64,000 nt of DNA, taken from an uncultured Geobacter sp. (lineage in GTDB: Bacteria > Desulfobacterota > Desulfuromonadia > Geobacterales > Geobacteraceae). Below, in pieces: positions 18,665 to 31,410 of the stretch. Numbering within the stretch: position 1 is the stretch's first letter; each line of letters starts with the position of its first letter. The translations under genes and the position numbers were made by a program. The stretch covers positions 1 to 64,000 of the forward strand of contig CAIWTU010000048.1 of assembly GCA_903915655.1 (NCBI GenBank), read 5' to 3'. The notes under the pieces are model-generated. The model worked only from the letters and a program-made list of their open reading frames with translations. It was not told where the DNA came from and did no database searches.

Positions 18665-18771
18665 TAGAATAGATACCCTTGACATTTGGAATCGGAGACA
18701 TTATCATCTGAAGGTAAATACAAACCTGCTTTTCTGCAAGATGCCAAACCAATCGAAAGGAGGGCTACCGT

Positions 18772-18834
18772 ATGTGGACTGCACAGTTTATGATTCGTCC
18801 TGTATCCCACTGTAAAGAGGGGTGCCTTAGTTAG
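18772..18834 (+). CDS. Candidate 20-residue small protein with strong ribosome site
   Basis: A 20-codon ORF begins MWTAQFMIRP and ends with the two-cysteine motif SHCKEGCLS. It is preceded by AAAGGAGG eight bases before the ATG, one of the best ribosome sites in the window. Its TAG stop runs directly into a 10-bp GNRA hairpin (gcccgtcgct, loop gaaa, agcgatgggc, 18834-18857), and an intrinsic terminator follows at 18867. The unit therefore looks like a complete mini-gene between DUF362 and clsB. I do not recognise the peptide. Tryptophan, histidine and two cysteines would suit metal binding, a redox role or a modified peptide, but that is speculation. Confidence 0.45.
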   Translation: MWTAQFMIRPVSHCKEGCLS

Positions 18835-18857
18835 CCCGTCGCTGAAAAGCGATGGGC
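18834..18857 (+). other. GNRA-capped 10-bp hairpin after the small ORF
   Basis: The stem gcccgtcgct/agcgatgggc (one G-U pair) closes on a gaaa tetraloop. It starts on the last base of the small ORF stop codon and is separated by nine bases from the terminator hairpin, so it may stabilise the 3' end of the message or be part of a small RNA. Confidence 0.7.
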
Positions 18858-18866
18858 GGCTCGAAT

Positions 18867-18903
18867 AAGAAAGCCTCCGGTCGCCAAGGCTGGAGGCTTT
18901 CTT
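18867..18903. terminator. Bidirectional terminator between small ORF/DUF362 and clsB
   Basis: A perfect 12-bp stem aagaaagcctcc/ggaggctttctt with a 13-base loop lies 20 bases beyond the clsB stop and 33 beyond the small ORF stop. A/T runs on both flanks let it serve both strands. Confidence 0.85.
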
Positions 18904-18923
18904 GTCAAATTTACGTTCCGGAC

Positions 18924-20114
18924 TCAGAGGAAACGCCGGATTGGGTCGCACAAGCGTTCCAGCAACCGCTCAGTCCAGCTTCTCGCCTCATGTTGCTGCA
19001 ATGTAATTCTTCGGGATTTCCCCATATTTTCGGCAATCATCAGACCCGCCTGCAAGCCAAATTCACGACTGTCCACAATGACATTCAACTCGTAATTCCG
19101 ATGAAAGCTGCGGTAATCGAGGTTTGCCGAACCGATGGTAACCAGACGGTCGTCCACAGACATTACCTTGGAATGTAGTATTGTCCCTTCCAACTCATAT
19201 ATCTCGACCCCCGCCCGCAGCAGGGGGGTAAGATAAGCCCTGCTTGCCAATCTGACAAGCGGGACATCGCTGATGGCAGGAAGAACTATCTGCACATGTA
19301 CCCCCCGGACAGCGGCACGGAGCAGGGAGCGCACAATACGGGGGCCCGGAATGAAATACGGTGTTACTATCATGATTTTTTCAGATGCACCCGCAATGGC
19401 CATCCTGAATGCGCTGCGAATAAAAGAGCGGTTGTAGTGAGGGGCGCCGGCTACAATCATCACATCGGCATCCCCCACCTCAACGGGCGGGATCGCCGGA
19501 ATAAAACAGCCGGGGAGCGGAGCCTGACATGCTCTTCGCCACGTTTCACTGAAAAGAGCAAGCAATTCAACAACCGAAGGGCCATCAAGCTGCATGCCAA
19601 AATCACGCCATCTTTTCGGGCTTTCTCCAAAACCGGCATATTCATCAGCGACATTCAAGCCGCCAAGAAAAGCAGTTTTGCCGTCAACAATGGCAACCTT
19701 TCTATGATCACGCCTGTCGAGCCACCGCAACCTTCCGAAGGCCGGCTTATTGAAGGGGATGCAATAAACTCCTCCCGCCTCCAGGCGCTTGAAATAAGCG
19801 GAAGGTGTGTCCAGACAGCCGATATAATCGTAGATCAGTGAAACGGTTACGCCTCGAGCGGCAGCCGCAAGCAGTTCATCAGCAAATGTGGTACCGATTC
19901 CGTCATTCCTGATAATGTAGAATTCCAGATGGATACTCCGCACTGCATTCCGGAATGCCTGAAATAACGGGGGGAAAAAGTCCCCTCCATGTGCAAAAAG
20001 GACCACCCTGTTCCCTCCGGTAAAGACCGCCTCGCTATTTCTCCTCAACATTTTTGTAAAACGAAGGGTGCGGAAGATTCCTTTTTTTCTTTTCTTTCGT
20101 TTGAGGAACGCCAT
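18924..20114 (-). CDS. clsB: Cardiolipin synthase B-like phospholipase D family protein
   Basis: A 396-residue protein with two complete HKD motifs: H137-K139-D144 (DHRKVAIVDG) and H314-K316-D321 (LHSKVMSVDD), each followed by the family GGxN or GSANxD signature. The length and the absence of N-terminal membrane helices fit ClsB/YbhO, a soluble-to-peripheral cardiolipin synthase, rather than ClsA. The basic N-terminus (MAFLKRKKRKKG) could bind membrane. It is a single leftward gene ending just before the bidirectional terminator. A different phosphatidyl-transfer specificity is possible. Confidence 0.85.
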   Translation of the reverse strand: MAFLKRKKRKKGIFRTLRFTKMLRRNSEAVFTGGNRVVLFAHGGDFFPPLFQAFRNAVRSIHLEFYIIRNDGIGTTFADELLAAAARGVTVSLIYDYIGCLDTPSAYFKRLEAGGVYCIPFNKPAFGRLRWLDRRDHRKVAIVDGKTAFLGGLNVADEYAGFGESPKRWRDFGMQLDGPSVVELLALFSETWRRACQAPLPGCFIPAIPPVEVGDADVMIVAGAPHYNRSFIRSAFRMAIAGASEKIMIVTPYFIPGPRIVRSLLRAAVRGVHVQIVLPAISDVPLVRLASRAYLTPLLRAGVEIYELEGTILHSKVMSVDDRLVTIGSANLDYRSFHRNYELNVIVDSREFGLQAGLMIAENMGKSRRITLQQHEARSWTERLLERLCDPIRRFL

Positions 20115-30080: not shown

Positions 30081-31199
30081 TTATCTCAGCCCGATCTCTG
30101 TACCAACCCTTTGCAGAAAGTCCTTCACAAAGGGGGTGAACGTCTCGTGCTCGAGGAGAAAGGCATCATGTCCATAAGAGGAGTCGATCAGATGGTATTC
30201 CACCGGCTTCCCTAGCTCGCGCAACACCTGGACCATTTCCTCGGTCTGGGCAGGTGGGTAGAGCCAGTCGGAAGTGAACGAATAAAACTGAATCGGCGCC
30301 TTGACCGGCGCAAAGGCCTCAAGAAAGGACTCGCAGCCCCAAGCCACATCATACAGGTCAAGAGCCTTTGCCAGATAGAGAAAAGAATTCGCGTCAAAGC
30401 GATCAACAAAATTATAGCCGTTGTAAAAGAGGTACCTTTCCACTTCAAACTGCCCGAAAAAATCAAAGAGCCCGTCCCGGGCAGAAAACCTGCGAGCAAA
30501 CTTGGCGTTCATAGATTCGTCAGAAAGGAAGGTTATATGGCCGATGCCGCGAGCAAGAGCCAGGCCATCTTTGGGATTATTGCGATATTCACCCTTCTTC
30601 CACGAAGGATCATTAAAGATAGCCCAGCGCGCTATGGCGTTCATCGCAATTGCCATCGGTGAGGGGCGGCCGCTCGTTGCCAGGACAACGGCCGAGGCAA
30701 CCCGATCAGGGTAACAGATCGACCACTCCAGAGCCTGCATCCCTCCCATGCTCCCTCCCAGAACTGTGAGGAGTTTTCCGATCCCCAGATGATCGAGCAA
30801 AAGCCTCTGGGCATGGACCATATCCCGCACGGTGATTACAGGGAATGAGAGGTTATATTTCTTTCCGGTTTTCGGGTTGATGGAAGCCGGTCCGGTCGAC
30901 CCGTAACAGGAGCCGATAATATTGGAACAGATAATAAAATATTTATTGGTATCGAGCAGGCGCCCCGGCCCTACAATGGCATCCCACCAGCCGAGCTTCT
31001 GATCCTCTTCGTCATGCTTGCCTGCCAGGTGGGCGCTACCGGTCCATGCATGGGCCACCATAATGGCATTAGACCGATCCTGATTGAGCTCGCCATAAGT
31101 TTCATAGGCAAGCGTAACAGGACCGAGAATGCGCCCGCTCTCCAGGCGAAGTTCGGTATCGAAGTGAGCAAATTTTGTCTCGACAACTCCAACAGACAT
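30081..31199 (-). CDS. metXA: Homoserine O-acetyltransferase
   Basis: A 372-residue alpha/beta-hydrolase enzyme that acetylates homoserine as the first committed step to methionine. I place the start at [10 protein letters not shown] (31199) because AAGGGG precedes it and the upstream codons are part of the riboswitch terminator. The nucleophile elbow is LGGSMGGMQ with Ser150; the acid/base pair lies in DWLYPP and SYGHDAF near the C-terminus. Expression is controlled by the SAM-I riboswitch directly upstream. A succinyltransferase activity cannot be excluded from sequence alone. Confidence 0.93.
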
Positions 31200-31249
31200 G
31201 GAACCCCTTAAAATTTTTGGTAACGAGCCGTGCCTGGATAAAAAGAGAC

Positions 31250-31286
31250 GCAAAAGCCCCTTCCGGTCATGGGAAGGGGCTTTTGC
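31250..31286 (-). terminator. SAM-riboswitch terminator of metXA
   Basis: On the minus strand a perfect 15-bp stem gcaaaagccccttcc/ggaaggggcttttgc with a 7-base loop is followed by gtctctttttat. It lies about 50 bases before the metXA start and is the off-state of the riboswitch expression platform. Confidence 0.92.
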
Positions 31287-31305: not shown

Positions 31306-31410
31306 CCTCTCTCATCTTTACCTTTCGGCAGGATTTAGCACCTGACGTCCAAACGGACCGGTTGCTGTGGTTTCATAGGGCCTATCCCTCCACCACTCTT
31401 GATAAGAAGG
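31306..31410 (-). promoter_or_regulatory. SAM-I (S-box) riboswitch
   Basis: Read on the minus strand the segment contains the conserved S-box blocks in order: ttatcaagagtggtggaggg, the ggccctatgaaaccacagcaacc loop region (given here as cctatgaaaccacagcaac), ggtgctaaatcctgc, and the closing gatgagag. These are the P1/P2 junction, J2/3 and P3-P4 elements of SAM-I. With an intrinsic terminator downstream and metXA after it, high S-adenosylmethionine should stop transcription. Confidence 0.96.

Follow-up and report, generated by a model that had tools for sequence, protein, structure and literature searches.

A putative family of cysteine-pair micro-genes with an RNA structure at a fixed codon distance in Geobacterales and other bacteria

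Arrest and leader peptides such as TnaC, SecM and ErmCL are encoded by very short, strongly initiated ORFs with conserved C-terminal residues and an RNA structure just 3' of them, and the readthrough and frameshift pseudoknots of MLV and MMTV are compact H-type structures placed some 8 nt beyond a particular codon. The preQ1-I-like riboswitches are also built on a small H-type pseudoknot with an A-rich third loop, which lies before a coding region. PqqA, a very small gene product, often starts with MWT. SCO proteins, which have a thioredoxin fold, carry the copper loop T-H-C-P-D-V-C-P. Here we describe a mini-gene that resembles each of these in part.

The window is the whole stretch of DNA analysed, 64,000 nt of contig CAIWTU010000048.1 from an uncultured Geobacter sp. 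The original prediction, made without database searches, recognised between two of its genes a Shine-Dalgarno sequence eight bases before an ATG, a 20-codon ORF with a C-terminal HCKEGC motif, a 10-bp gaaa-capped hairpin beginning on the stop codon, and a 'perfect terminator', all within about 150 bases. The first three are read directly (Table 1), and the hairpin, whose stem is perfect, shares its first base with the end of the stop codon (position 18834). The terminator stem is present too, but 'perfect' was an overstatement, as its + strand tail (TTTCTTGT) is only moderately U-rich, and the length must be revised because a promoter that had been missed extends the expected transcript, which should be ~190 nt (about 18714-18903). 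Promoter, Shine-Dalgarno sequence, ORF, hairpin and terminator are thus predicted to form a discrete unit, complete in itself, and RNA folding of 18752-18905 gives -74.1 kcal/mol (z = -7.1), with none of 200 shuffles as good. A DUF362/4Fe-4S protein gene lies upstream and a convergent PLD-type protein gene (18924-20114, - strand) downstream, and the mini-gene is present in a single copy in this genome. Elsewhere in the window there is an ordinary SAM-I riboswitch (31309-31408, - strand, 80 bits), and the ORF downstream of it (30081-31253) resembles homoserine O-acetyltransferase (MetX), as judged from sequence only.

Table 1. Coordinates of the mini-gene and its parts in the window.
Feature	Coordinates	Strand	Remarks
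Sigma-70 type promoter TTGACA-17-TATCAT	18679..18707	+	11/12 matches
Shine-Dalgarno AAAGGAGG	18756..18763	+	8 nt 5' of ATG 18772
20-codon ORF MWTAQFMIRPVSHCKEGCLS, TAG stop	18772..18834	+	Homologues in relatives; codon-level purifying selection
CKEGC motif codons	18811..18825	+	Cys1 18811-18813, Cys2 18823-18825; across phyla the family core is CxEGC/CxDGC
8-nt spacer CTTAGTTA (family form NNUANNNN)	18826..18833	+	Between Cys2 codon and structure
10-bp GAAA-capped hairpin GCCCGTCGCT-GAAA-AGCGATGGGC	18834..18857	+	Takes the place that the pseudoknot has in other phyla
Intrinsic terminator stem	about 18866..18903	+	Bidirectional; usable by the convergent PLD gene as well

Of 97 relatives, drawn from four families, 95 carry homologues of the 20-residue peptide, at 1-4 copies per genome and mostly full length and open, and many of the same loci were recovered independently by a DNA search. 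Codon changes in 76 non-redundant loci are mostly synonymous: 85% of single-base codon differences at codons 9-18 (25% expected) and 89% at codons 2-3 (33% expected), with N/S relative to neutral expectation of 0.06 for both segments and 0.29 for codons 4-7, and Ser12 is encoded by both TCN and AGC. The amino acids of codons 9-18 were fixed by the search pattern, so that their strict invariance partly reflects how loci were selected. Codons 2-3 lay outside it, and those codons not covered by search patterns agree (2-3, 4-7 and, in the pseudoknot set, -8 to -1, with N/S 0.12). The Shine-Dalgarno sequence is kept in all 75 homologous loci, an upstream TTGAC in 66 (7.8 in shuffles), accompanied by a plausible -10 in 61, and a terminator in 71 (5.2 in shuffles). 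The strongest helix begins exactly 8 nt past the Cys2 codon in 62 of the 75 and 7 or 8 nt past it in 69, against 4% at 8 nt in the shuffled control, and compensatory changes occur at pairs 4-9 of the equivalent stem (74 loci). The stop codon is variable in position, lying two codons past Cys2 in 51 loci and six in 19.

A finding that homologous regions keep the hairpin and lose the frame or ribosome site would have refuted the original prediction; the opposite is seen, with frame, ribosome site, hairpin and terminator all conserved. We therefore regard the window locus as a strongly supported, real and unannotated gene on comparative grounds, and its peptide, which had only been inferred, is very probably produced, although there are no expression data. 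Besides the promoter, what had escaped notice was that the unit is conserved throughout the order and in several phyla and that ORF and structure are a fixed distance apart. Of 76 Geobacterales loci, 75 use TGC for Cys2, whereas the Cys1 codon is TGC in 54 and TGT in 22, which argues that a constraint at the nucleotide level begins at 18823-18825. The spacer (18826-18829 and equivalents) keeps U-A at positions 3-4 in hairpin and pseudoknot clades alike, whatever the amino acids, and this is unexplained.

A degenerate DNA pattern for RPV[ST][HR]CKEGC, scanned across 84,980 species genomes, gave matches of which those listed are mostly from Geobacterales but also from Omnitrophota, a Spirochaetes MAG, Theseobacter and Firmicutes MAGs, as tiny ORFs. 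A composite search pattern, made up of the CxEGC codons, 9 nt and UCCYGGRYANGACNNUAAAM with at most 3 mismatches, is present in 64 of 193 sampled Omnitrophota genomes, in 38 of 395 from other members of the window's own phylum, Desulfobacterota, and in 31 of 299 from one Firmicutes phylum; reversed, it had zero matches in any genome listed. The broader family motif is [FYW]M[LIV]xx[VTI][AST][HR]CxEGC, and 71 non-redundant loci give the consensus [RK][YFW]M[LIV][RP][PR]V[ATS]H-C-[KS]-[ED]-G-C, in which Cys1 and Gly are invariant. Typical peptides are MKRFM[IVL]PRVAHCSEGC in Desulfobacterota, MDITxKYMLRPVAHCKEGC in Omnitrophota and M(L/F)xKHWMLRxTAHCKEGC, often followed immediately by the stop, in Firmicutes; the N-terminus varies in length and the peptides have 16-27 residues. 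Paralogues ending CGEGH or CDEGH, with Cys2 replaced by His, occur in three genomes (G149, G337 at locus L194, and G430), two of which also hold CSEGC copies. Outside Geobacterales there is mostly one copy per genome. The family appears to be ancient and common to Geobacterales, other Desulfobacterota, Omnitrophota and Firmicutes. Isolated copies were also seen in Patescibacteria (L129 and L155, in Wolfebacteria and Parcubacteria records); these are not regular hosts, as the motif occurs in only the source genome among 287 and the other 286 of the L129 phylum lack it, which points to isolated transfer or binning.

Outside Geobacterales a compact H-type pseudoknot with covariation in both stems comes after the ORF. 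Stem 1 is GUC/GAC, CUC/GAG or GCC/GGC with a CY loop, stem 2 is GGGCA/UGCCC, GGACA/UGUCC, GAGCA/UGCUC or GGAUA/UAUCU, and the A-rich third loop, NNUAAAC, is near-invariant. Pairing holds in 94.9% of cells across 27 diverse sequences, 22 cells carry double changes, and neither value was reached by any of 500 shuffles; sliding the partners out of register reduces pairing to 30-43%, and the covariation was confirmed in a larger non-redundant set. The pseudoknot begins 8 nt past the Cys2 codon, the same distance as the plain hairpin of Geobacterales. The composite pattern presupposed this spacing, but it is also seen in all 17 element-bearing loci outside Geobacterales among the matches listed for the peptide alone. 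The rule is not absolute, since two loci without the pseudoknot element (L112 and L131) have a hairpin 1-2 nt past Cys2. At L146 there are two tandem pseudoknots, the second without a peptide ORF, preceding a ferritin-like gene. The pseudoknot is not in general a terminator for the downstream gene, as a T-run follows directly in just 9 of 77 loci (3 at the control position); Firmicutes have their own terminators after it.

What is conserved in every main clade is the peptide core, along with its distance to the downstream structure. That two unlike structures should lie equally far from the same codon argues for a role related to the ribosome, most simply a pause, and the fixed 8-nt geometry suggests that this is programmed; only the geometry is observed, and stalling is inferred from it. 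We give an even chance to the ribosome pausing while the last Cys is decoded or joined, with the hairpin or pseudoknot at the mRNA entry. Recoding finds no support: the sequence GGN UGY NNU ANN, with its third bases free, contains no X XXY YYZ slippery heptamer for a -1 frameshift, and a selenoprotein with a SECIS is rejected because the position holds UGY or CAC, with UGA only as a stop right after Cys2 in some Firmicutes and others. An internal Shine-Dalgarno sequence in the KEG codons is not the selected feature either, as Glu changes to Asp (GAY) in several lineages with loss of the SD-like bases.

Rrf2 regulators account for 12 of 54 downstream genes scanned in all clades, often as the next gene in Omnitrophota, and hemerythrins for 7 of the 54. 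These Rrf2 proteins keep three Cys ligands and are of the [Fe-S] type, and in the closest Omnitrophota cases the rrf2 start codon is 9-35 nt past the pseudoknot, often without its own SD. Upstream neighbours include Prismane/Hcp, rubrerythrin and Metal_resist, and others are ferritin, FprA, superoxide reductase, NifU/Suf and, of metal type, CopA-type HMA ATPases, a CsoR-type repressor and YHS. The counts come partly from related genomes and are not independent events. An Rrf2-type palindrome, TGATACN6GGTATCA, is found in 16 of 77 promoters and in none of the shuffles, and is likely, from its sequence, to act as operator for an Omnitrophota Rrf2 regulator not yet characterised; it sits between -35 and -10 in L079, L090, L117, L174, L177, L250, L257 and L260-L268. 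In Geobacterales two neighbours are stable: DUF362 on the upstream side, which the window shares, and, in one family, MacA/MacB-type genes on the downstream side; there MacA/HlyD and MacB-type ABC genes lie ~110-190 nt 3' of the mini-gene (L069 and similar loci); these could be an exporter or just old synteny.

The explanation that we prefer, at a probability of roughly 45%, is that this is a stand-alone micro-gene whose 20-residue peptide, with its conserved C-x3-C pair, would act in trans. It is favoured because contexts change, the gene is usually single-copy outside Geobacterales, and Geobacterales and Firmicutes copies end in a terminator of their own; neither the peptide core nor the 8-nt spacing changes, although stop position and neighbours do. 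The near-invariant CxEGC with occasional Cys-to-His change, together with neighbours concerned with metals, Fe-S, ROS and NO, argues for a thiol or soft-metal role. Of a metallothionein-like microprotein, which would bind metal through Cys/His, what is observed is the near-invariant Cys pair, the His-bearing paralogues and the metal-gene neighbours; binding itself is inferred. The metal or redox role guessed earlier fits these data and stays unproven. A part in the response of anaerobes to Fe-S, soft-metal and oxidative or nitrosative stress seems reasonably probable for the family and slightly less likely than not for Geobacterales, where DUF362 and MacAB-like genes, and not stress genes, are the constant neighbours. 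More tentatively, the two thiols, often with an adjacent His, would bind a soft metal or form a redox-active group; Cys2 replaced by His suits a metal ligand better than a disulfide. The His is not essential, as one Geobacterales subtype has Arg in its place, and one homologue (L063) has lost the second Cys; both count against this explanation, as does the kinship of the genomes behind the neighbour enrichments. In many Omnitrophota the mini-gene would be transcribed with the [Fe-S]-type Rrf2 regulator from the operator-bearing promoter, and in Firmicutes and Geobacterales it is free-standing.

A free peptide of 16-20 residues is hard to keep stable, and if it alone mattered the fixed spacing would need another reason. 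The main rival, a nascent-chain sensor in which the peptide acts while still inside the ribosome, accounts for the spacing better: about 12 conserved residues by the peptidyl-transferase centre and the structure 8 nt downstream would stall the ribosome, and thiol oxidation, nitrosation or metal binding would alter the stall and hence expression of a downstream gene (e.g. rrf2) or of the mini-mRNA. The conserved residues do directly precede the structure, N-terminal length and stop position are variable, and the closeness of the Omnitrophota rrf2 start codons, often without an SD, is as expected. However, the window and many relatives lack a co-directional follower and the unit is closed by a terminator, which leaves the stand-alone copies unexplained, the gene is mostly present once per genome and not once per operon, and MW[TI] at the other end of the peptide is also conserved in Geobacterales; we consider this sensor possible but unlikely. 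Whether the peptide acts in trans or within the ribosome is inferred, and neither is proven.

A tiny conserved Cys peptide with HlyD/ABC genes downstream in many loci could also be a RiPP precursor, the substrate of an unlinked maturase, possibly exported by the MacA/MacB-type products of one Geobacterales family. This is improbable, as no recurrent maturase adjoins the gene in any clade examined, in keeping with the original prediction; the unlinked candidate GeoRSP is absent as well (best radical SAM TIGR04303 match in the window's genome 73.6 bits, cut-off 400), there is no leader/core split, and MacAB is missing from most contexts, with a terminator between. The near-invariant A-rich loop, the strong covariation and the tandem pseudoknot would suit a dual-function or regulatory RNA with a secondary ORF, but the peptide is common to clades with unrelated 3' structures and its codon changes are mostly synonymous in hairpin and pseudoknot clades alike, so that this is improbable too. 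A 20-codon ORF is by itself presumably common, yet a chance ORF ahead of an ordinary terminator is refuted by its conservation among relatives and in other phyla, by codon selection and by conservation of the whole unit, and can be dismissed with near certainty.

A trans-acting peptide remains our preferred reading. We also raise, as a speculation less probable than not, a previously unseen class of stand-alone paused micro-genes: ancient ORFs of 16-27 codons whose synthesis would halt on the last Cys through the structure 8 nt downstream, the nascent thiol pair sensing or capturing a metal, NO or an oxidant. If true, this would be a translation-based stress sensor in Geobacterales, other Desulfobacterota, Omnitrophota and Firmicutes. 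The gene is present in nearly every member of a well-studied electroactive order and a third of sampled Omnitrophota, and is unannotated because it is 20 codons long; the covariation-supported new pseudoknot at a fixed codon distance makes pausing testable, and the mini-gene opens a way into the responses of strict anaerobes to Fe-S damage, metals, NO and oxygen.

The family seems undescribed so far. At E values up to 10 the 20-mer matched nothing in Pfam or NCBIfam, PqqA included, neither the window locus nor eight pseudoknot loci reached an Rfam gathering score (the best weak hit, Acido-Lenti-1 on the other strand at E = 0.29, is taken as chance), and nothing relevant on the peptide, or on a pseudoknot with Rrf2 or Omnitrophota, was found in the open literature, subscription papers and outside preprints not being covered. 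As in arrest and leader peptides, a short and strongly initiated ORF has conserved C-terminal residues and a structure close downstream, but in Geobacterales and Firmicutes the mini-gene has its own terminator and lacks a cis-regulated gene, and it shows no known stall motif and a free stop position. The co-directional gene directly downstream of an attenuator is absent in the window, where the next gene is on the - strand, and is met only in Omnitrophota-type loci; in place of a run of regulatory codons there are only two separated Cys codons. The pseudoknot shares with those of MLV and MMTV its compact H-type form ~8 nt past a defined codon, but there is no recoded stop or conserved slippery heptamer and it carries in-frame stops; like that of preQ1-I riboswitches it is small with an A-rich third loop, but it follows the coding region and has no Rfam match. 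The peptide shares the presumed-ligand spacing of the SCO loop, [TSA]-H-C-x-[ED]-x-C-(P), in a product of only 16-27 residues and not a thioredoxin fold, and it has the ~20-residue size of PqqA and other tiny RiPP precursors and the MWT-type start frequent in PqqA, with a conserved Cys pair replacing Glu/Tyr and without a database match or maturase. The general kind, bacterial microproteins, is known; what is new is the family and its unusual fixed-distance pseudoknot.
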